DNA of 64,000 nucleotides from Rhizomicrobium sp. (GTDB lineage: Bacteria; Pseudomonadota; Alphaproteobacteria; Micropepsales; Micropepsaceae): NCBI GenBank assembly GCA_037200045.1, contig JBBCHM010000001.1, forward strand, positions 2,170,001-2,234,000, given 5' to 3'. The notes beneath the pieces were generated by a model. It made no database searches, was not told the origin of the DNA, and saw nothing but the letters and a program-made list of their open reading frames with translations. Positions 14,564 through 57,729 of this stretch are shown here, in pieces. The position numbers and the translations under genes are program-made. Position 1 is the stretch's first letter. Each line of letters opens with the position of its first letter.

Positions 14564-15427
14564 TTAGCGGCTTGCGCTGAGACGGCGGTTTATCTCGTCG
14601 AGCTGCTCCAGCGTCTTGTAGGCGATTCGTACCTCGCCGCCTTTGGAGCCCTTGTGCACTACTTGAACTCTCAGCCCTAAGGCATTGGAAATACGCTCTT
14701 CCAGGTCGCGGATATTCGGGTCCACAGGCGTGGGACGGCCTTTGGATGATTTCTGCGTCTTCGAACGCTGTTCGGCCTGCCGAACGTTCAACGACCCGGA
14801 GACGATCTGGAGCGCCCGTGTCTCGGCATCCGGCGCCCCGACCAGCGTACGGGCATGTCCGGCCGACAGCCTGCCGTCACGCACCATGGCCCGAACCGAC
14901 TCCGGCAGGGTCAGCAGCCGCAGCGTGTTGGCGATGTGGCTGCGGCTCTTGCCGACTTCCTTGGCGACCTGGTCCTGGGTGTATTTGAACCGGTCCATCA
15001 GCTCGTGATAGGCCGCCGCCTCCTCGATGGCGTTGAGATCGGCGCGCTGGACGTTCTCGATGATGGCGATTTCGAGCGACTCGGAATCGCCCATCTCGCG
15101 GACCACGACGGGCACGTCGTGGAGCTTGGCCATCTGCGCCGCGCGCCAGCGCCGCTCGCCGGCGACGATCTCATAGGCGTTGGTCTCGCCCTTGACCGGG
15201 CGGACCAGGATCGGCTGGAGCACGCCCTTCTCCTTCACCGACTCGGCGAGGTCGTTCAGATCCTCCGGGGCGAAGCGCTTGCGCGGCTGCAGTCTGTTGG
15301 GGCGCAGGAAGGCGACCGGTAGCTTGTGGGTCGCCCGCACCTCGCCGCGCGTCGGCACCGCCTCCTCGCCGATCAAAGCCGACAACCCGCGGCCGAGGCC
15401 GCGATGACGCTCTTCCGCCGCCATCAT
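14564..15427 (-). CDS. parB: chromosome partitioning protein ParB
   Basis: A 287-residue CTPase/DNA clamp. The N-terminal peptide RGLGRGLSALIGEE docks on ParA. The CTP-binding and spreading motifs VAGERRWRAA and ENVQRADLNAIEEA are followed by a helix-turn-helix (TQDQVAKEVGKSRSHIANTLRLL) that reads parS. The C-terminal dimerisation domain ends EQLDEINRRLSASR. The start ATG at 15427 overlaps the parA stop as ATGA, so the pair is translationally coupled. Two perfect parS sites lie upstream at 16.8 and 18.8 kb. Confidence 0.96.
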   Translation of the reverse strand: MMAAEERHRGLGRGLSALIGEEAVPTRGEVRATHKLPVAFLRPNRLQPRKRFAPEDLNDLAESVKEKGVLQPILVRPVKGETNAYEIVAGERRWRAAQMAKLHDVPVVVREMGDSESLEIAIIENVQRADLNAIEEAAAYHELMDRFKYTQDQVAKEVGKSRSHIANTLRLLTLPESVRAMVRDGRLSAGHARTLVGAPDAETRALQIVSGSLNVRQAEQRSKTQKSSKGRPTPVDPNIRDLEERISNALGLRVQVVHKGSKGGEVRIAYKTLEQLDEINRRLSASR

Positions 15428-16245
15428 GCCGCTGCTTTCAGCCGCTCGCGCTCGCGCGCGATGAGCTCGCCGGCGAGCTTGATATAGGCCTGGCTGCCGG
15501 GGCAGCGCAGGTCGTAGACGAGGGCCGGCAGGCCGTGGCTCGGCGCCTCGGAAATCCGCACGTTGCGGGGGATCGTGGTGCGATAGACCTTGTCGCCCAT
15601 ATTCTGGCGCACATCGGCCTCGACCTGCTCGGAGAGCTTGTTGCGCTTGTCGTACATGGTCAGGACGATGCCCTGGATGTCGAGCGACGGGTTCAGATTG
15701 GCCTTCACCAGGCCGATGGTCTTGAGCAGTTGCGACAGGCCTTCGAGGGCGAAGAACTCGCATTGCAGCGGCACGATCACCGCGTCCGCCGCCGCCATCG
15801 CGTTCACCGTCAACAGCGTCAGCGAGGGCGGGCAGTCGACCAGCACATAGGAAAACGGAGATGATCCGTGTGCGGAATATTCCTCCAGCGCATCCTTGAG
15901 GATGAAATTGCGGCGCTGGCGGTCGATCAGTTCGAGCTCGGCGCCGGAGAGGTCGACCGTCGACGGCACGATCGACAGGCGCGGAATGCGCGTCGGCGTC
16001 ACCGCCTCGGCGATCTTCGCCTCGCCCATCAGCACGTCATAGGTCGTGAGCTTGCGCTCGGCGCGCGGGATGCCGAGCCCGGTCGAGGCATTGCCCTGGG
16101 GATCGAGGTCGATCACCAGCGTCGGCTCGCCGACCGCGGCCAGCGCGGTGCCGAGATTGATCGCCGTCGTGGTCTTGCCGACGCCGCCCTTCTGGTTGGC
16201 GACGACCAGGACCCGCGGCCTACCGCCTGGACTTGGACTGGACAT
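15424..16245 (-). CDS. parA: chromosome partitioning ATPase ParA
   Basis: A 273-residue Walker-type ATPase with the deviant Walker A motif ANQKGGVGKTTT, switch region DLDPQGNAS and Walker B YVLVDCPPSL. It forms the DNA-bound ATP gradient that moves ParB-parS complexes, and so the replicated origins. I choose ATG 16245 ([15 protein letters not shown]), which has GGGAG eight bases upstream. An in-frame start at 16275 would lie deeper inside rsmG. Its start still overlaps the 3' end of rsmG by 26 bases. Confidence 0.95.
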   Translation of the reverse strand: MSSPSPGGRPRVLVVANQKGGVGKTTTAINLGTALAAVGEPTLVIDLDPQGNASTGLGIPRAERKLTTYDVLMGEAKIAEAVTPTRIPRLSIVPSTVDLSGAELELIDRQRRNFILKDALEEYSAHGSSPFSYVLVDCPPSLTLLTVNAMAAADAVIVPLQCEFFALEGLSQLLKTIGLVKANLNPSLDIQGIVLTMYDKRNKLSEQVEADVRQNMGDKVYRTTIPRNVRISEAPSHGLPALVYDLRCPGSQAYIKLAGELIARERERLKAAA

Positions 16246-16882
16246 GTTCGAGCTCCCGGACCTCCAGGATAACACCGGAAGGATCGGTGGCGCTCTGGTG
16301 CTGGAGGGCCTTCATCCTCCAAGATTTACGGGCTTCGGTCAATTCGGACGCTAGGGATTGACCCTTCAGGAACAGGCAAACGGTCCGTTTGCCCGCCAAA
16401 TGCTGTGCATAGCCGAGCAGCTTGCCCAGCGGCGCCAGCGCCCGCGCCGTCACGACATCGAACGGCGCGGCCTGGGCGGACTCGATCCGCTCGTTGCGGA
16501 CCTCGATGTCGAGGCCTATCCGGTCCGCCGCGGCCTTCAGGAATTCGGCTTTCTTGCCGGTGGATTCGAACAGGCTGACCTTGACCTTGCCGCGCAGGAG
16601 TTCGGCCAGGACCAGACCCGGAAACCCCGCACCGCTGCCGAGGTCGGCGAGCGTCTTCGCGGACGCCGGGATGTATGGGACGAGCTGCGCCGAATCCCAG
16701 ATGTGCCGGCGCCAGACGTCTTCCAGCGACCGGGCCGAGACCAAGTTATGCCGCGCGTTCCAGTCGCCCAGCAGCCCGACATAGGCCTTCAGCCGCGCCA
16801 GTGTTTCACGTGAAACACCGGTCTTCGCGGCGAAGTCCTCGGGGCCGAAGGGCTCAGCCGGATCGGGCGCGAGCATGGGCAA
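16220..16882 (-). CDS. rsmG: 16S rRNA m7G527 methyltransferase RsmG (GidB)
   Basis: A 220-residue SAM methyltransferase with [18 protein letters not shown] as motif I and [23 protein letters not shown] as the RsmG signature. It methylates N7 of G527 in 16S rRNA. Codons 23-27 (VSRET) are encoded by a perfect parS palindrome, so the gene carries a partition site within its reading frame. The 5' end overlaps mnmG by about 29 bases and the 3' end overlaps parA, giving a tight mnmG-rsmG-parA-parB operon. Confidence 0.95.
16802..16817. promoter_or_regulatory. parS centromere site 1
   Basis: Perfect 16-base palindrome TGTTTCACGTGAAACA, the consensus bacterial parS bound by ParB. It lies within the rsmG coding region. 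The parB gene is 1.4 kb downstream on the same strand. Confidence 0.95.
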
Positions 16883-18786: not shown

Positions 18787-18802
18787 TGTTTCACGTGAAA
18801 CA
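18787..18802. promoter_or_regulatory. parS centromere site 2
   Basis: A second perfect TGTTTCACGTGAAACA palindrome, placed in the short mnmE-mnmG gap and touching the mnmE stop codon at 18803. It is 1985 bases from site 1. Confidence 0.95.
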
Positions 18803-25193: not shown

Positions 25194-25232
25194 CGGCACG
25201 CGCGCGATCTGTTCTTTGCCGCACTGATTATA

Positions 25233-26394
25233 CCAACGGCCTTAGTTTCTGACTCGTGAGGATTCAACGGGGTCGCTGTCTGTGATTCGCTTTGCGAGGT
25301 GATTCGCGAAGGGGATCGGCGATGGCGATCAAGATTATGCGTCCGGAACACAGTGCTTCGGATTTGCGGCGGGAGGCGGCCAAGACGCGGCACGCCGATC
25401 AAGCTCGCCGGCTGTTGGCGCTGGCACTGGTGCTGGAAGGCACGTCTCGCACGGACGCGGCAACGGCGTGCGGCATGGATCGCCAGACGCTGCGCGACTG
25501 GGTGCATCGCTATAATGCGTCAGGCGTCGATGGTCTTGTCGACCGCAAGGCTCCAGGCCCAACGCCCCGGCTGACGGAGCAGCAGGAGGCTGAACTTGCC
25601 CAGATTGTGGAGCAAGGTCCCGATCTTGCGAACGACGGTATCGTGCGCTGGCGCCGCGTCGATCTTCGCGACGTGATCGCCGCGCGCTTTGGCGTTGCGC
25701 TTCACGAGCGCACCGTGGGCAAGGTGCTGGACCGGCTTGGCTTCAGTCATATGTCGGTTCGCCCGCGCCATCCCAAAGCAGACGCCGATGCCCAAGAGGC
25801 GTTCAAAAAAACTTCGCGTAGCTTGTCGATCGCGCCTTGCCGGATGCCGCCAAAACCAAGCCGATCGAGATCTGGTTCCAGGATGAAGCCCGGATCGGCC
25901 AGAAGGGAAGCTTGACCAGAATGTGGGCGCGGCGCGGGACACGCCCCACCGCGCCGCGCGATCAGCGCTACAAGTGGGCCTACCTCTTCGGCGCGGTCTG
26001 TCCCGAGCGCGCCTGTGCCGCCGGTCTGGTTCTTCCTTGCGCCAATACCAGGGCGATGACGGCACACATCAAGGAGATCAGCCGGGCCGTCACGCCAGGC
26101 GCCCACGCTGTCCTGGTCATGGATGGCGCTGGCTATCACGAGAAAGCCATCACCCACCTGCCGTCCAACATCTCGCTGCTGACGTTGCCGGCCTACGCCC
26201 CCGAACTCAACCCGGTCGAGAATGTCTGGCAGTTCCTGCGCCAGAACCATCTCGCAAACCGCGTCTTCAAGGACTACGACGCCATCCTCGATGCTTGTTG
26301 CAACGCTTGGCGAAGCTTGCTCAGCCACCCAGACAATATCGCCTCGATAACCCAAAGATCATGGGCCAAATGTGTCAACCACTGAGGCCGTTGG
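25233..26394 (+). mobile_element. IS630-family insertion sequence, about 1162 bp
   Basis: The terminal inverted repeats match at 17 of 21 positions; both ends start CCAACGGCCT when read inward. The element is flanked by TA at 25231-25232 and 26395-26396, the target duplication of IS630/Tc1-mariner elements. It holds one transposase split over two frames. It landed immediately beyond the stop codon of the HD-domain gene (TTA at 26397-26399 on the plus strand), so that gene is intact. Confidence 0.9.
25322..26385 (+). pseudogene. IS630 transposase, two frames with an in-frame stop at the junction
   Basis: The first frame (from ATG 25322) encodes helix-turn-helix domains (SRTDAATACGMDRQTLRDWVHRYN and a second winged helix). 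The second frame (coding from about 25822 to 26385) has the DDE catalytic core: WFQDEARIGQKG, VLVMDGAGYH and PAYAPELNPVENVWQFL. A run of seven A at 25805-25811 is the classic -1 slippage site of IS630 elements. In the -1 frame, however, a TAG follows at 25819-25821, where GAG would continue the family sequence. The slipped ribosome would therefore stop after about three codons, and this copy is probably inactive. Confidence 0.75.
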
Positions 26395-26396
26395 TA

Positions 26397-26999
26397 TTAC
26401 TCTGCCGCCGCCTGCTGCTCCGGCCGCAGGTAGATCGTGTTCCGGGGCCGCGCCATCACGCGCTGCACCATCGGCTCGAAAGCCTCCAGCGGCATCGCGT
26501 CATAGGCGGGATCGAAGGCGTTCTGGTCGTGCCGGGCGCAGAACCGCGCGGTGTACTCGAAATGGGGGTGGCCGCGGAACTGGTCGCGCATGTCGCGGTC
26601 GAGCCCCAGATAGTGGAAGAAATAGTAGCCCTGGAAGATGCCGTGATGCGCCATCATCCAGAAATTCGCCTCCGACACATACGGCTTCATGATGGTGGCG
26701 CCGAGATCGGCATGGCTGGCCGAGCACAGGATGTCGCCGATGTCGTGAACCAGGGCGCAGACCACGTATTCCTCGTCCATGCCGTCGCGATGGGCGAGCG
26801 TCGCCGATTGCAGCGAATGTTCCAGCCGGTCGACCGGGAACCCGCCGCAATCGCCGGCCAGCATCTTCAGATGCGCCAGCACGCGATCCGCCACGCCGCG
26901 ATTGAAGTCCGCGGTCGCGGCGACGATCTTCATCCAGTCGTCCCGAGTTCCATCGACCATCGCCTTGAACTGGGCACGGTCGGAAGCATCGTCGGTCAT
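26397..26999 (-). CDS. HD-domain protein (PhnZ/TmpB-like or phosphohydrolase)
   Basis: A 200-residue HD-domain protein with H61 in RLEHSLQSATLAHRDG and the His85-Asp86 pair in ALVHDIGDIL. Further histidines follow in SASHADLGA and MMAHHGIFQGYYFFHYLG. The sequence resembles HD proteins that cluster with the mixed-valent di-iron oxygenases TmpB and PhnZ, but also simple phosphohydrolases, so the chemistry is open. ATG 26999 has AGGGG upstream and is preferred to 27020. No phosphonate genes are seen nearby. Confidence 0.75.
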   Translation of the reverse strand: MTDDASDRAQFKAMVDGTRDDWMKIVAATADFNRGVADRVLAHLKMLAGDCGGFPVDRLEHSLQSATLAHRDGMDEEYVVCALVHDIGDILCSASHADLGATIMKPYVSEANFWMMAHHGIFQGYYFFHYLGLDRDMRDQFRGHPHFEYTARFCARHDQNAFDPAYDAMPLEAFEPMVQRVMARPRNTIYLRPEQQAAAE

Positions 27000-28458: not shown

Positions 28459-30078
28459 TTACCTTCTAACCTGAAACCTGCGTCTCAACGCTATTAGAAA
28501 GACCGACACGCAGGCGATCAGCACGACGACCTGCGACATACCGATGCAAAACACCAGTATATCATAGGCATTGTTCGCGCATTTCAACCAACCATCTGGG
28601 TCTCCCCGATTTGCGGTTTCGAACAATGTCGGGACGAATTTCTCGCCGGCTCCAACAATGATCGCCGATTGACTTGGGACATCCGCGGCCTTGCATGCCG
28701 CATTTCGCAGCAGATAACTGTAGAACGCGATTGCAACAGCCCAAAAGACCAAAATCACAGCCAAGGGGCGAGCCATCGACTGCCCGTAGTCCGACAAGAT
28801 GCCATAAAGAAGGGACACAAGACGATCGAGAGAACGGGCGTTGGTGCGCGCCCTATGGCAACGCAATTCCAAGGCATGAAACATGCCTTCCGCTTGAATG
28901 TCTCCAATCTCCGAACTAAGCCGGCGCAAATGCCGGAACGAATTCTCGTAACGCACAGTCGCACGATCTCGATCGGCCCGAATCTTCCGCATCGGTGTCC
29001 ATCGCATCACCAGCAATGGCGGTATCCACCTCAGAATGTACAAAGCACGCCAGAATATTATCTGAGTCCGATAGAAGAGAATATCGAACCGGTCATGCCC
29101 GCTGAACCTCATAGGGTCTTCGAGCCTGGCCTCGATGATCGTATAAGGCCACCAATCTCGAGAAGGCGCTTCTCCTGCTCGGAACGACATTCCACTGAAG
29201 TCCGTATCCGAATGAAGGATGACCTGATTGAATTTGGCGACACCATCGAACGAGGCGCCCGAAAAGTCCGTGCTGTCCTGAAAAACGCAGTTCGTGAAGT
29301 CGACGGCATCACAGAACCGCGTTCGCGAAAAACTCGTCGTCCGCCGGAACGGCGCGGCACCATGAAAGGACGCGCGCGCTGAAAAGGCAGTGCCCCCGAA
29401 CTGGACATCGCCCAGGAAATTCGCCGAATCGAATATCGCGTCCGCACAAAACGTAGCATCGGTAAACAGAGCTTCGACTGGAAACTCCGCCCCTCTGAAT
29501 GCAACCCTGCCAGCGAATGTCGCGAATCGAAATCTCGATAGGACTTTTCCGTAGTAGGAGAAATCGCCGCAAAAGATAGCCGAGCCGAGGTTCGCGAGAA
29601 GCTCGGTCCCCGAATAAGCGAATGCCTCGGGAAACACCACACCGCGAAGATCAGCAAAGCTCGCCACGTCCTCCAAAGACCAACGCTGTCGCAGATCATC
29701 GTCCGGACGCATGGCGGCATCCAGCCGCTGGCGGAGTTCATCGATCGTCGATGCACCCTTGGCTTGATCCCATACATCTGACTGACATAGGAAAGGTGGA
29801 AAGCGATCTCGTACCAGTCTCTCGCGGGACGCGCGCAACTCGGGATAGAATAGAGGTGGAAGATGAAAGCGCGTCCACCGGCGACCCGCAAAATCGATCA
29901 GCCGGCCCTCCTCCTGCCGCCAGACGTCTTGCAACGTGCCCGCAGCCCCCACCGGGTCTAATCCCAGCGCTGCACGATTTGGTTTGCTCGCCAGACCGTC
30001 CCAGGACCAATCCTGCCACCACCAGCGCCTGAAAGAACCACGAAAATTTTGGTCCTTCCAAACCTCTCTCCAATCCAT
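28459..30078 (-). CDS. pentapeptide-repeat membrane protein
   Basis: A 539-residue protein. The middle (about residues 135-300) carries pentapeptide repeats of the A/C-x-F-x-x type, such as FRFATFAGRVAFRGAEFP and FTNCVFQDSTDFSGASF, which form a right-handed square beta helix. A C-terminal region has two membrane segments (PLAVILVFWAVAIAFYSYLL and IGMSQVVVLIACVSVFLIAL) separated by a loop with two cysteines. The N-terminus is rich in tryptophan (RRWWWQDWSWDG). Its DNA is visibly more A/T-rich than its surroundings, consistent with horizontal transfer. Function is unknown. Confidence 0.78.
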   Translation of the reverse strand: MDWREVWKDQNFRGSFRRWWWQDWSWDGLASKPNRAALGLDPVGAAGTLQDVWRQEEGRLIDFAGRRWTRFHLPPLFYPELRASRERLVRDRFPPFLCQSDVWDQAKGASTIDELRQRLDAAMRPDDDLRQRWSLEDVASFADLRGVVFPEAFAYSGTELLANLGSAIFCGDFSYYGKVLSRFRFATFAGRVAFRGAEFPVEALFTDATFCADAIFDSANFLGDVQFGGTAFSARASFHGAAPFRRTTSFSRTRFCDAVDFTNCVFQDSTDFSGASFDGVAKFNQVILHSDTDFSGMSFRAGEAPSRDWWPYTIIEARLEDPMRFSGHDRFDILFYRTQIIFWRALYILRWIPPLLVMRWTPMRKIRADRDRATVRYENSFRHLRRLSSEIGDIQAEGMFHALELRCHRARTNARSLDRLVSLLYGILSDYGQSMARPLAVILVFWAVAIAFYSYLLRNAACKAADVPSQSAIIVGAGEKFVPTLFETANRGDPDGWLKCANNAYDILVFCIGMSQVVVLIACVSVFLIALRRRFQVRR

Positions 30079-31686: not shown

Positions 31687-32130
31687 TCAAGCGAACGGCT
31701 TAACCACCGCCAGGATCACGATGAAGATCACCAGCACGAACGGCACCTCGTTGATGATCCGGTAGAACCGGGTGGACCGCATGTTGGCGTCACGCGCGAA
31801 GGTTTTCACCGTCGCGGCGAAAAATCCGTGCAGGCCGCTCAGCGCCAGCACCAGGACGAATTTGATCTGCAGCCAGGTGTCCTCATAGGCGCCGGTGACA
31901 TAGGCCAGGGTCAGGCCGAGGATCCACACCGCGATCATCGCCGGGTTCACGATGCGGCGCAGCAGGAGCCGCTCATGCGTCTTCAGCATCTCCGATTGCG
32001 GCGAGCCGGCGGGAACCTCCGAATGGTAGACGAACAGTCGCGGCAGATAGAGCATGCCCGCCATCCACGCGATGACCGCGATGACGTGCAGCGCCTTGAT
32101 CCAGTCGATGTGATTGGACAGCCACATCAT
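31687..32130 (-). CDS. hemJ: protoporphyrinogen IX oxidase HemJ
   Basis: A 147-residue membrane protein with about four helices. The opening WIKALHVIAVIAWMAGMLYLPRLFVYH contains the conserved histidine and arginine expected to bind haem, and later THERLLLRRIVNPAM and FRIINEVP-like motifs (here FYRIINEVP) fit HemJ. It oxidises protoporphyrinogen IX to protoporphyrin IX, the substrate of ferrochelatase. Its ATG overlaps the hemH stop (ATGA at 32127-32130 region), so the last two steps of haem synthesis are translationally coupled. Confidence 0.93.
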   Translation of the reverse strand: MMWLSNHIDWIKALHVIAVIAWMAGMLYLPRLFVYHSEVPAGSPQSEMLKTHERLLLRRIVNPAMIAVWILGLTLAYVTGAYEDTWLQIKFVLVLALSGLHGFFAATVKTFARDANMRSTRFYRIINEVPFVLVIFIVILAVVKPFA

Positions 32131-33161
32131 CACGTCATGTCCCCCCAACGCGGACAGGCCTTGGCTTCGCCCGCGCATCCGCCCGCTGCGCCGATGGTAC
32201 CGCGCGCCTTCGCGGCTTGCATCACCAGATCGGCGAGTGCGGCGATGAAGTCGGGATGCATTCCGACCGTCGGCACGCGCAGATAGTCCGCCACACCGCT
32301 CGCCGCCGCCAGATGCGCGTATTCGATATCGAGCTCGACCAAGGTTTCGGAATGTTCCGACACGAAAGCGATCGGCGCGATCACCAGACCCTTGCCCTTG
32401 GCGCCGGCGCGGCGGATCTCCGCATCGGTCGCCGGACCGATCCACTCCAACGGCCCAACACGGCTCTGATAACAGACCGACCAGTCGAGATTTTCCATCC
32501 CCAACCCATCCACAATCACCTTGGCCGTACGCTCGACTTGGCTCTGATAGGGATCGCCCTTCGCGATGGTGCGCTTGGGCAAGCCATGCGCGGACAGCAG
32601 CAACCGATAATTCACGCCGGACTTCGCTTTCGCGAAGGCCGCCCGGATAAGTTCTACCTCTGCCGAGACAAATCCTTGCGCTTCCGGGTAACAGCAGATT
32701 CGCGTGGTCGGCGCCGCGATACTGGCCTTCACCGACGCCCGCTGCCAGTCCAGGAAGGACGAGCCTGTCGTCGTCGTCGAGAATTGCGGATATAGCGGCA
32801 GCAGAACGATCCGATCCGCGCCCCACGCCTTGACCTGCGCCGCGGTCTCGTCGCTGAACGGATGCCAGCACCGCATCGCGATGAAGGCCTTCGCTTCGAC
32901 GCCTCGTGCCATCAACACTTTATCCAAAGCATCGGCCTGTGCCCGTGTCTCCACGAGAATCGGCGAAGCCCCGCCGATCTTGGCGTAGATATCTTGCGCA
33001 ACCAGCGCCCGCCGTCGCGCGATGAACCATGCCAATGGCCTGCGCAGAAACGCCGGAAGCGTTATGATCGCGGGGTCGCTGAAGAGATTGCGCAGGAACG
33101 GCTCGACGGCTTCCGGCGAATCCGGACCGCCCAGGTTGAACAGGACGATTGCGAGCTTCAC
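32130..33161 (-). CDS. hemH: ferrochelatase HemH
   Basis: A 343-residue enzyme that inserts iron into protoporphyrin IX. The opening IVLFNLGGPDSPEAVEPFLRNLF, the catalytic histidine in LLLSAHGLPKRT and the acid in FVSEHSETLVELDIEY are canonical. Cysteines at CAGEAKAC near the C-terminus could belong to a [2Fe-2S] cluster such as some ferrochelatases have, but this is inference. The start is GTG at 33161. In the origin regions of Caulobacter and Rickettsia the equivalent position is occupied by hemE. Confidence 0.95.
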   Translation of the reverse strand: MKLAIVLFNLGGPDSPEAVEPFLRNLFSDPAIITLPAFLRRPLAWFIARRRALVAQDIYAKIGGASPILVETRAQADALDKVLMARGVEAKAFIAMRCWHPFSDETAAQVKAWGADRIVLLPLYPQFSTTTTGSSFLDWQRASVKASIAAPTTRICCYPEAQGFVSAEVELIRAAFAKAKSGVNYRLLLSAHGLPKRTIAKGDPYQSQVERTAKVIVDGLGMENLDWSVCYQSRVGPLEWIGPATDAEIRRAGAKGKGLVIAPIAFVSEHSETLVELDIEYAHLAAASGVADYLRVPTVGMHPDFIAALADLVMQAAKARGTIGAAGGCAGEAKACPRWGDMT

Positions 33162-33445
33162 GCTTTATCCCGCACCTTCATCTTCTACTTCAAAATAGAA
33201 TCTTAGATTCTAAGATTCTGAAGATGGTGTAAGGCCTGTGATTTGTGGAAGAGTCGGTGAGTGGAAACTGCTCTAGGCCGGAAAGGCCTGGGACTCAAGT
33301 GTCGGAGCACAGACAGATGGCGGACGCGCCCTCGTGCTTCTGGTGACGGAAGCGGTATGCTTCGAGAGATACCCACGACGGTCGTCGCAGGTCCGCCAAA
33401 CCGGCGTCCGTCAACAAGCTGGGTGGACGAAAAAGGAATGGTTTT
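33162..33445. other. candidate chromosome replication origin (oriC) region
   Basis: A 284-base gap between divergent hemH and ppsR, with an A/T-rich left part. In Caulobacter crescentus and Rickettsia, oriC lies between hemE and the ppsR/RP001 homologue, and here the flanking order (mnmE, rho, hemJ, hemH | ppsR, maf, aroE, coaE, dnaQ, secB) matches. Five GANTC methylation sites fall between 33198 and 33296. One DnaA-box-like 9-mer (TGTGGAAGA, 33244-33252) matches the consensus at 7 of 9 bases; I see no perfect DnaA box and no CtrA TTAA-N7-TTAA site. The call rests mainly on gene order and divergence. Confidence 0.6.
33197..33219. promoter_or_regulatory. perfect 11-base inverted repeat with three GANTC sites
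   Basis: Arms AGAATCTTAGA and TCTAAGATTCT are exact complements around a single T. GANTC occurs at 33198-33202, 33206-33210 and 33214-33218, spaced 8 bases apart. The A/T richness stands out in this genome. Confidence 0.75.
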
Positions 33446-34267
33446 GTGAATCCGCAGTTCCACGTGCATCTGGTGTCGGACGCGACCGGCGAGACGCTGA
33501 ACGCCATCGCCCGCGCCGCCTTGGCGCAGTTCGAGGGCGTGGTGGTGAACGAGCATTTCTATGCCCTCGTGCGCAGCCAAAAACAGCTCCAGCGCGCCGT
33601 GGAGCACATCAAGGCCGAACCCGGGCTGGTGTTCTTCACCCTGGTCAATCTGCAATTGCGCCAGGAGCTGCAGCAGGCCTGTATCACGCTTTCGGTGCCG
33701 TCCTACGATGTGCTGGAAACGCCCATCGGGGTGCTGCGCGACTTCCTCGGCGGCGCCGCGGAAACCCACCGGCCGGGCGGGCAGCACGATGTCGATCAGA
33801 AATATCTCCACCGCATCGAGGCGCTGAATTTCACCATCGCCCATGACGATGGCCAGAATCTCGAAACCCTGGGCGAGGCCGAAATTATCTTGACGGGCGC
33901 CAGCCGCACCTCCAAGACGCCGACCTGCGTCTATCTCGCGATGCGCGGCTATCGCGCCGCGAACGTGCCGCTGGTTCCCGGCATGCCGCTGCCGGTGGAG
34001 CTGCTGGCCGTGAAAAAGCCGCTCATCGTCGGCCTGTGGGCGACGCCCGACCGGCTCATTCAGGTGCGCCGCAACCGGCTCGCGACCATGGGCGAGGCCC
34101 GCGATACCGACTATGTCGACCTCGAACTGGTCCGCGCCGAAGTCACCAACACCAAGCGCCTGTTCGAAAGCCAGGATTGGCCGTCGATCGACGTCTCGCG
34201 CCGCTCGGTGGAGGAAACCGCCGCCTCGATCGTCAATCTGCTCGCCGAGCGGCAGGAAGGCGCCTAG
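33446..34267 (+). CDS. ppsR: PEP synthase/PPDK regulatory protein (DUF299)
   Basis: A 273-residue bifunctional kinase/pyrophosphorylase of the DUF299 family, which controls phosphoenolpyruvate synthase or pyruvate, phosphate dikinase by phosphorylating a threonine with ADP. The opening FHVHLVSDATGETLNAIARA, the P-loop GASRTSKT at residues 151-158 and GLWATPDRLIQVRRNRL are diagnostic. The start is GTG at 33446 with AAAAGGA upstream. It is the first gene to the right of the candidate origin and its stop overlaps the maf start. Confidence 0.93.
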   Translation: MNPQFHVHLVSDATGETLNAIARAALAQFEGVVVNEHFYALVRSQKQLQRAVEHIKAEPGLVFFTLVNLQLRQELQQACITLSVPSYDVLETPIGVLRDFLGGAAETHRPGGQHDVDQKYLHRIEALNFTIAHDDGQNLETLGEAEIILTGASRTSKTPTCVYLAMRGYRAANVPLVPGMPLPVELLAVKKPLIVGLWATPDRLIQVRRNRLATMGEARDTDYVDLELVRAEVTNTKRLFESQDWPSIDVSRRSVEETAASIVNLLAERQEGA

Positions 34268-34860
34268 TGGATTTCATTCTCGCCTCCGGCAGCGAGTCCC
34301 GCAGGCGTCTCCTGGCCGCCGCCGGCGTGCCGTTCGAGGCGATCCCGGCGGATATCGACGAAGACGCGCTCAAAGCCAAATTGCTGCGCGCCGACACGCG
34401 GGCGCAAGACATCGCCGGTCATCTCGCCGAAGCCAAGGCGCTGCGGATATCCACGCTCCACCCACAGGCGCTAGTGCTGGGCGCCGACCAGACGCTGATC
34501 TTCGGCGCCGAGGTCGTCAGCAAGTGCCCCGATCTCGCGGCGGCCCGCCGCTTGCTGCTGCGCCTGCGCGGCCACGCGCACCGGCTCGTCGGCGGCTATG
34601 TCCTGGCCAGGGCGGGCGTGGTGGTCTGGCGTCATGGCGAGACGGCGAAGCTGACCATGCGGGAGTTCAGCGACGGCTTCCTGGACGGTTATCTGGCGGC
34701 GGAGGGTGAGGGCGTGTTGTCGGCGGTGGGGTGCTACAAGCTCGAAGGCCTGGGGGCGCAGCTTTTCGCCACCATCGAAGGCGACTATTTTTCCATCCTG
34801 GGCCTCGCGCTCCAGCCTTTGCTGGCCGAACTCAGAAGACAGGGCGTGTTGCGGACATGA
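34267..34860 (+). CDS. maf: Maf-family nucleotide pyrophosphatase
   Basis: A 197-residue Maf/YhdE-type protein that hydrolyses non-canonical nucleoside triphosphates. It has the motif LASGSESRRRLLAAAG, the acidic/glutamine region VLGADQTLIF and the C-terminal GCYKLEGLGAQLFATIEGDYFSI. The start is GTG at 34267, sharing its G with the TAG stop of ppsR. Its own stop overlaps aroE (ATGA). Confidence 0.93.
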   Translation: MDFILASGSESRRRLLAAAGVPFEAIPADIDEDALKAKLLRADTRAQDIAGHLAEAKALRISTLHPQALVLGADQTLIFGAEVVSKCPDLAAARRLLLRLRGHAHRLVGGYVLARAGVVVWRHGETAKLTMREFSDGFLDGYLAAEGEGVLSAVGCYKLEGLGAQLFATIEGDYFSILGLALQPLLAELRRQGVLRT

Positions 34861-56613: not shown

Positions 56614-57729
56614 CTATTCCGCCGCGAGCAGCTCGCCGCTCTTGCCGCGGTCGGCGAAGTTGATGGTCTGGAGGTAGCGGATGCCCTCCTCGGCAATGTC
56701 GTCGCCGACCATGCGGTCGCCTTCTTTCTTCAGCTCGTCCATGTCGACATACATGCCGTAGAACGCCTTGGTGCGCTCGGTGATGATGCCGGCGTTCAGC
56801 AGCGTCTTGATCAGCACGCGGAAGATGTTGGCCGACTGCTTCATGCCCTCGCGGCGGTCGTCGTCGGTGAAGGCTTCCATGATCGCGGCGCGCGCGTCCT
56901 GCCAGTCGATGCCGACGCTGTCATAGACCGTCTGCATCTGCTCGGCGTTGATGAGGTTGAACAGCAGCGTCTGGAAGCATTGCGCCGCCCAGTCCTCGAC
57001 CAGGTTCTGCTCGTCCTTGCTGAGCTTGGGGATCGTGCGGTCGGCCCAGATCTTGCCGAATTTGTGATGGAACGCCTCGTCGGTCATCACGAGCTGGCAG
57101 AGCTTCACCAACAACGGGTCCTGCGCGTTCTGGTACAGCGTCGCGAAGGCGCCCATGGCGAGGCCCTCGACCAGCATCTGCATGCCGACGATCTTCTTGT
57201 AGACCTCCGGCGCGCCGACCATCTCGGTCAAGAGCGATTGCAGCGTGGGGCCGCAGGGCAGCGGCGAGCCCCAGCGCGCCTTGATATAGGCGGCGAAGGC
57301 GGTGACGTGGCGGGCTTCCTCGCGCGTCTGGTTGGCGGCGTATTCCTGGGCGCCCGGATCGCGCAGGATGTGGCAGAGCGAGGCGGAGAGCGCGAGCGCG
57401 CCCTGCTCGCCATGCAGGATGGCGGAAAGCTGCCAGCGCGTCGCCTCGTTGGCGAATTTGATCTTCTGCTCGCGCGTCATCGTATCGCCGATGCGGGTGT
57501 GGAAGATCGGGAAGAAATTCTCCGGCATGATCATCTTCTCCGTCGCGTCATAGGGCGCGGCGAAGTCGATGTATTTCTTGTCGAGCGGATCCCAGAAATG
57601 GTCGTGGGTCGCGCTGATGATCTTGTCGAAGGCGGTCGAGCGCACATTGTAGCGCGCGGGATCCAGCATCGCGGGAAAGTCGTCCGGCGCCACCGCGTCA
57701 TAGGCATTGTCTTTGGTGATCTGAACCAT
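56614..57729 (-). CDS. ferritin-like di-iron carboxylate protein
   Basis: A 371-residue helical protein. The metal site is recognisable as Glu in ILHGEQGALALSA, ExxH in TREEARHVTAF, Glu in MLVEGLAMGAF and ExxH in MTDEAFHHKFG, the two-fold pattern of ribonucleotide reductase-like and N-oxygenase-like di-iron proteins. Whether it is an oxygenase, an oxidase or a scaffold is unknown. Two TGAC-N6-GTCA dyads lie just upstream of its start. Confidence 0.82.
   Translation of the reverse strand: MVQITKDNAYDAVAPDDFPAMLDPARYNVRSTAFDKIISATHDHFWDPLDKKYIDFAAPYDATEKMIMPENFFPIFHTRIGDTMTREQKIKFANEATRWQLSAILHGEQGALALSASLCHILRDPGAQEYAANQTREEARHVTAFAAYIKARWGSPLPCGPTLQSLLTEMVGAPEVYKKIVGMQMLVEGLAMGAFATLYQNAQDPLLVKLCQLVMTDEAFHHKFGKIWADRTIPKLSKDEQNLVEDWAAQCFQTLLFNLINAEQMQTVYDSVGIDWQDARAAIMEAFTDDDRREGMKQSANIFRVLIKTLLNAGIITERTKAFYGMYVDMDELKKEGDRMVGDDIAEEGIRYLQTINFADRGKSGELLAAE

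Follow-up and report, generated by a model that had tools for sequence, protein, structure and literature searches.

According to previous studies, the chromosome origins of Caulobacter crescentus and Rickettsia prowazekii are located between hemE and a COG1806 gene, which corresponds to ppsR (PMC1914354). The Caulobacter origin works with low-affinity DnaA sites (PMC4468827, PMC4285127), and several GANTC sites are reported in it (PMC3973325). Outside Caulobacter, most origins of alphaproteobacteria were described as lacking CtrA sites, although Rickettsia prowazekii may be an exception (PMC4468827). In Bacillus subtilis and others, the BUS arrangement consists of tandem DnaA boxes, a short GC-rich spacer, a triplet tract and AT-rich DNA (PMC8287927).

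We analyzed a 64,000-nucleotide stretch of a Rhizomicrobium sp. genome (the window, positions 2,170,001-2,234,000 of contig 1 in a 4.73-Mb genome of 3 contigs), in which the gap between hemH and ppsR very probably is the oriC of the chromosome. A sequence-only reading had placed an origin here from synteny, and this placement is now backed by motif polarity, a core found in 58 of 60 genomes of the genus, duplex instability and the proximity of parS, all of them features of the sequence that bear on the location. An origin is thereby placed for a little-known lineage whose six closest named loci by ppsR (61-71% identity) are metagenome-assembled Alphaproteobacteria.

Gene setting of the hemH-ppsR gap

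The gap, its flanking genes and the partition loci of the window are:

33162-33445, no strand: intergenic region presumed to contain oriC, based on gene families, duplex instability, motif polarity and the conserved core
32130-33161, minus strand: hemH, ferrochelatase (PF00762, E 1.5e-109)
33446-34267, plus strand: ppsR, COG1806-type kinase/pyrophosphorylase (PF03618, E 5.8e-88; NF003742 over cut-off)
14564-15763, minus strand: parB (PF02195, PF17762, PF23552)
15424-16275, minus strand: parA-type ATPase (ParA/MinD-type NCBIfam matches, all below cut-off; open reading frame as listed, start provisional)
16802-16817, no strand: parS, perfect 16-mer
18787-18802, no strand: parS, perfect 16-mer

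The genes diverge at the gap as had been described, with hemH at 32130-33161 on the minus strand and ppsR at 33446-34267 on the plus strand. Behind hemH are hemJ (PF03653, within 31687-32280) and rho, and behind ppsR are aroE, coaE, a DnaQ-type exonuclease, SecB and a Tim44-like protein. The earlier gene list holds for rho, hemJ, hemH, ppsR, aroE, coaE, dnaQ and secB, but its maf was not confirmed: the single open reading frame tried at the expected place (34113-34709) matched no family. The two perfect parS sites are the only perfect copies in the genome and lie 14-16 kb from the candidate, and parB and the gene of a ParA/MinD-type ATPase (all matches below cut-off) agree with the earlier placing of parS and parAB near the gap.

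The flanks had also been said to mirror those of the Caulobacter and Rickettsia origins, which applies to the ppsR side, while the other flank of those origins is hemE and not hemH (PMC1914354). The window therefore shares with them the ppsR flank of a hemE-ppsR type oriC and differs in that hemE is displaced and hemH takes its place. Among the genus set (our own genome and 24 of the same genus, n = 25), tblastn located hemE between hemH and ppsR in 20 genomes; it was missing there from the window and from L002, L004, L012 and L013 (5/25), and the hemE of our own genome lies on contig 2 (1264868-1265881).

The GC content is 0.53 in the gap and 0.33 in 33180-33236, compared with 0.66 in the window, in agreement with the A/T-rich patch reported before; the origins of Caulobacter crescentus and Rickettsia prowazekii likewise have AT above the genome average (PMC1914354), with window GC standing in for the genome value in our case. 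Unlike the Caulobacter origin, the gap contains no CtrA site of the form TTAA-N7-TTAA, as the sequence-only reading had stated, and full sites of this form occur in 0 of the 25 gaps.

Motif polarity and the extent of the chromosome

KOPS, the sequence that orients FtsK, is directed in E. coli from the origin towards the terminus (PMC2680272), and GGGCAGGG is one of its forms. This form occurs 342 times in the genome (183 + 159) compared with 146 (79 + 67) for the reversed control, a 2.3-fold excess. The search covered three of the four 9-mers that extend the motif, with the C class listed to 2.987 Mb. On contig 1, these three classes gave 113 forward and 4 reverse motifs in 0-1.545 Mb, 3 forward and 13 reverse from 1.545 Mb to the candidate, and 17 forward and 3 reverse among the matches listed beyond it, so that the motifs point away from the candidate on both sides. 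When one reverse-to-forward switch is fitted to 1.545-3.10 Mb, its best position is 2.024-2.187 Mb (31/36 motifs), an interval that ends 16 kb left of the candidate. A switch at the candidate itself (2.2033 Mb) fits 30/36 motifs, a value reached in 0 of 20,000 permutations; the 6/36 motifs oriented the wrong way for an origin there include some on each side. KOPS grow sparser towards the origin, and the C class likewise thins out from 17 per 250 kb to zero in the vicinity of the candidate.

The same polarity was examined in three relatives assembled as single contigs (G290, G266 and G283), each sampled as 20 stretches of 20 kb, with the predicted origin fixed beforehand at the match of a sequence model of the core (R1, described below) and the terminus opposite. 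An origin at the core fits 43/46 motifs in G290 (p 5e-10), 26/30 in G266 (p 6e-5) and only 28/42 in G283 (p 0.04). The best free fit lies left of the core by 0.12 Mb in G290, 0.30-0.74 Mb in G266 and 0.03-0.85 Mb in G283, at a sampling step of ~0.2 Mb and with few motifs near the core. As a sequence proxy in our own genome and three sampled relatives, the GGGCAGGG polarity is consistent with replication leaving the gap in both directions.

GC skew, which had been proposed as a check on the origin, proved uninformative, being weak and inconsistent in our own genome and the relatives. GC skew and TA skew over 44 sampled stretches of our own genome gave no usable signal and no GC-skew switch, and k-mer singular vectors over 43 sampled stretches gave no usable signal either. 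At the core, the sign of the mean GC skew switches in G290 and switches the other way in G283, whereas G266 shows no change, and because of this disagreement GC skew could not be used.

Contig 1 alone would give very unequal arms of ~0.66 and 2.4 Mb. Its motif polarity flips within ~16 kb near 1.54 Mb, and the motifs of contig 2 are nearly one-way reverse (4 forward, 37 reverse in two 9-mer classes) and show no lasting switch. In G266, matches to stretches of contig 2 occur at 2.07 and 2.30 Mb in the left arm, the match of contig 1 position 1.56 Mb is at 2.99 Mb, also in the left arm, and that of position 1.68 Mb is inverted at 3.91 Mb in the right arm. Most simply, contig 1 would be misjoined or rearranged near 1.54 Mb and contig 2 would be part of the left arm; the presumed misjoin or rearrangement leaves the window untouched.

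Alternatively, contig 2 (1.5 Mb) could be a separate replicon with its own origin, the origin in the window serving contig 1 only. Such a replicon might be suggested by two 2-mismatch parS-like sites on contig 2 (1,453,547 and 1,453,590), but these lie beside genes that are phage-like by eye, its motifs are one-way except for four and show no sustained switch, and stretches of contigs 1 and 2 share the left arm of the single-contig G266, which makes a second replicon unlikely. An apparent motif convergence on contig 2 near 0.49 Mb was rejected, as a further motif class did not support it. The two parS-like sites are 43 bp apart (L069 13547-13605; contig 2, 1453547-1453605), and tape-measure-sized, capsid-like and integrase-like open reading frames were seen nearby by eye; the one open reading frame scanned there matched no Pfam family.

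Origins linked to dnaA are common in other bacteria, and an origin beside dnaA (contig 1, 1.14 Mb) was considered as well. Upstream of the dnaA neighbourhood (L071 3000-3400), visual inspection shows DNA richer in AT with several GANTC sites. Against this location, dnaA is 1.06 Mb from the candidate and inside a one-way run of GGGCAGGG motifs passing through 1.14 Mb (the 113 forward and 4 reverse motifs of 0-1.545 Mb), and there is neither a parS nor a match of model R1, which leaves an origin at dnaA almost no probability. Clusters of canonical DnaA boxes were also rejected as a guide, perfect TTATCCACA numbering 12 genome-wide (28 for the reversed control) and being absent from the window.

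A conserved core upstream of ppsR

A core of ~120 bp upstream of ppsR aligns in 25/25 genomes of the genus set, whose PpsR proteins are 61-74% identical to that of the window. Model R1, a sequence-only model of this core with the window in its training set, matches contig 1 at 2203183-2203300 and, at E<=0.01, nothing else in the 4.73 Mb of the genome. The core and its parts in the window are:

33183-33300, plus strand: conserved putative origin core (model R1 match, E 1.1e-20)
33176-33226, no strand: least stable 50-step stretch in the stability scan, presumed unwinding region
33198-33218, no strand: 21-bp palindrome (20/21) GAATCTTAGATTCTAAGATTC with three GANTC sites (CcrM-type), identical letters in G266
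33214-33229, plus strand: degenerate triplet tract GATTCTGAAGATGGTG (G at 33214, 33220, 33223, 33226 and 33229; T at 33217)
33237-33245, minus strand: weak DnaA-like box 1 (TGTGATTTG on the plus strand), putative DnaA site
33244-33252, minus strand: weak DnaA-like box 2 (TCTTCCACA, 7/9), 7 bp from box 1, putative DnaA site
33251-33255, no strand: GANTC site (GAGTC)
33290-33299, plus strand: conserved GGGACTCAAG, with GANTC at 33292-33296

The order of the core is GANTC, AT-rich DNA, triplet tract, GC spacer, two weak DnaA-like boxes and GANTC, and the genus consensus reads rightward as AAGANTCYTA; ATG-ATG-AAG-ATG-ATG; TTAGGGC; TGTGANT-TGTGGA; TAGGC; GGACTCAAG. A nearest-neighbour stability scan of the 64-kb window located its least stable 30-, 50- and 100-bp stretches in the gap.

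Model R1 matches 58/60 genus genomes, including 33 of the 35 that were not used in building it, and G277 and G287 gave no match; it thus provides a sequence model for locating the core across the genus. The match is single in 57 of the 58 matched genomes, one genome having a second weak match. The locus contains ppsR plus hemE or hemH in 17 of 18 unseen genus genomes checked, and in four unseen genomes (G041, G263, G266 and G283) hemH is at the core and hemE is not.

In a search of the class, 14 of 240 genomes match R1 at E<=0.01, including 4 of the genus and 10 others. The best 3 matches outside the genus (E 3e-4 to 8e-4) adjoin hemE, and the other 7 (E 0.002-0.01), with no hemE, hemH or ppsR nearby, were taken as chance. 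Searched with R1 up to E 10, 80 named ppsR loci (508 kb) gave 10 matches, each in the gap upstream of ppsR and in the expected orientation. Three of these loci appear to be training-set genomes (L086, L087, L091), and three matched loci (L157, L093, L161) have more divergent PpsR proteins (50-57% identity). No match was found in the remaining named loci searched, including Caulobacter, Brevundimonas and Phenylobacterium, so the modelled core is not shared by the whole class. A pattern of triplets plus GANTC found 10 matches in the 80 named gaps, compared with 0.15 in mononucleotide shuffles and 1 on the reverse strand; roughly half of these 10 come from near relatives as judged by PpsR identity, and the pattern is absent from most named gaps.

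The core could instead be a divergent GANTC-dependent promoter or regulatory region for hemE or hemH and ppsR, with the true origin elsewhere nearby. Its left end near the start codon of hemE or hemH would suit such a role, and the motif polarity resolves at best to tens of kb in our own genome and to the sampling step of ~0.2 Mb in the relatives. However, the core is still beside ppsR in the 5/25 genomes without hemE there, spans ~120 bp with conserved blocks, contains the least stable duplex of the window and has the gene setting of known origins. A solely regulatory core is therefore considered very unlikely, the preferred reading being that the gap is oriC, and promoter and origin functions may coexist in the core.

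In Azospirillum, Nitrospirillum and Sneathiella (L112, L124, L126, L133, L144, L151, L153), AT-rich DNA, an NNG tract and CTGTGGATAACGG were observed upstream of ppsR; CTGTGGATAACGG holds a perfect DnaA box, and the parts are ordered as in the core of the window.

DnaA-like boxes, triplet phase and GANTC sites

The sequence-only reading had found one 7/9 DnaA-like box and no perfect box in the gap. Both statements are correct: the box is TCTTCCACA at 33244-33252 on the minus strand, and the gap contains no TTATCCACA even within 1 mismatch. The 320 bp preceding ppsR yielded no TTATCCACA within 1 mismatch in any of the 25 genomes of the genus set. With 2 mismatches allowed, 50 sites were found in 23/25 gaps, one of them in the window (last 260 bp; shuffles 14.0 +/- 4.6). 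In box 1, TGT is invariant and TGTG is present in 24/25 genomes, and TCCACA occurs 22 times in the last 260 bp of the 25 gaps compared with 4.7 +/- 1.4 in shuffles. Elsewhere in the window there are 6 one-mismatch boxes, a number close to chance expectation (mean 2.96, sd 1.50; reached in 7 of 100 shuffles).

The earlier guess of unusual or sparse signals was right in that near-consensus boxes are absent from the 25 gaps, but a conserved core, which had gone unseen, is present. The genus would share an origin core that has no near-consensus DnaA box. The genome encodes DnaA (TIGR00362, 386 bits, over cut-off), in which the GRDHTTVLHA stretch near the C-terminus is presumably ordinary, so that weak sites are a likelier reason than an odd DnaA.

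With its weak DnaA-like boxes, the core would resemble the Caulobacter Cori and its low-affinity DnaA sites. The Caulobacter-type TGATCCACA within 1 mismatch was found in the 320 bp before ppsR in 5/25 gaps (shuffles 2.0 +/- 1.3 sites), none of them that of the window, and TCCCCA, the Caulobacter W-box (PMC4285127), occurs 21 times in 18/25 gaps (last 260 bp; shuffles 6.7 +/- 3.4). Unlike Caulobacter, the gap of the window has no exact G-box or W-box, and W-boxes were therefore not used to explain it.

The core also resembles the BUS of Bacillus subtilis and others, with tandem boxes, short GC-rich spacer, triplet tract and AT-rich DNA in the same order and spacing (PMC8287927); the BUS-type arrangement of boxes and GC-rich spacer is present, although the boxes are weak and match the consensus poorly, and the tract of this genus keeps a G at every third base. 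The BUS rule, a run of three or more NAN trios no further than 16 bp from box 2, was followed in 9/25 genomes compared with 6.2 +/- 2.0 in shuffles, and the window, with 1, is not among them. We therefore describe the core as laid out like a BUS and do not classify it as one, because the middle-A trio rule does not hold.

Counted from the first TGTG, G is present at -8 and -11 in 25/25 genomes and at -14, -17, -20 and -23 in 76, 84, 56 and 68% of them, respectively. The mean best-phase G count is 5.12/7 compared with 3.22 +/- 0.13 in shuffles, a value reached in 0 of 1000 (25 genomes). All of the 16 unseen cores have G at -8, -11, -14 and -17, which correspond to 33229, 33226, 33223 and 33220 of the window. 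The sequences of both genus tests were selected by GANTC, A+T content and TGTG and not by NNG, and 2 of 18 unseen genomes were left out, having no core that fits this pattern. The same test on 17 sequences outside the genus is partly circular, as 11 of them were chosen by a pattern requiring NNG and 6 by R1. The genus-wide core and its triplet phase appear to be new; titles on the DnaA-trio with alphaproteobacteria or Caulobacter, and on GANTC with oriC and DnaA box, showed no G-phased tract among the matches listed.

GANTC sites are present in this gap as in the Caulobacter origin (PMC3973325). The densest 110-bp GANTC cluster of the window lies in the gap, with 5 sites compared with 1.5 per kb overall. 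GANTC is found in the left part of the core in 24/25 genomes, where the middle base is A, C or G while GANTC is kept, and on the right side in 18/25, where CAA is invariant. The genome encodes a CcrM relative of 361 aa with a RAMA domain over cut-off, which NF050803 matches over its full length at 644 bits, below the 830 cut-off of that model. Conserved GANTC sites and an encoded CcrM relative, as expected of a CcrM-marked origin, are both found. CTNAG, another motif reported to be biased in these genomes (PMC3973325), is present in 16/25 cores and is not especially dense in the gap of the window.

Judged by the layout of the core, a BUS-like module is a plausible opening mechanism, although the trio rule does not hold for it. 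DnaA would bind the two weak boxes at 33237-33252 and extend leftward over the GC spacer onto the triplet tract, where the triplets may serve as its contacts; the AT-rich stretch at 33176-33226 would then melt, unwinding in this presumed direction, and two forks would leave the melted stretch in opposite directions. We regard the DnaA-box and unwinding steps as somewhat likely. With GANTC sites placed both inside the presumed unwinding stretch and immediately past the boxes, CcrM methylation may mark new versus old origins or tune the flanking promoters, a step proposed only tentatively. According to a previous study, Caulobacter without ccrM kept a wild-type-like DNA content profile in minimal medium (PMC3973325), which counts against a role of methylation, and a gating role of CcrM is for this reason offered as a hypothesis.

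For the genus, and loosely for other alphaproteobacterial lineages, a variant of the module could be imagined in which DnaA reads a G at every third base (3'-GWW-5') and not a middle A, the adjoining boxes are so weak that a consensus box is dispensable, and CcrM gates opening via the GANTC sites in the melting stretch. We consider this variant rather doubtful; if DnaA does read G-phased triplets, the DnaA-trio rule would need to be widened.

Three further features of the window were observed. An insertion sequence at 25227-26397, with helix-turn-helix and DDE_3 transposase pieces, is 97.4-97.5% identical to 2 copies in sampled stretches of G266. A pentapeptide-repeat protein of 539 aa (28459-30078) is encoded in a lower-GC stretch adjoining rho, and a weak stretch of it resembles the anti-phage effector HalA, far below cut-off. 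Finally, an AurF-like protein (PF11583) is encoded at 56614-57729, and a 77% identical match to its stretch occurs in the same 20-kb sample of G266 as the match of the hemE region.
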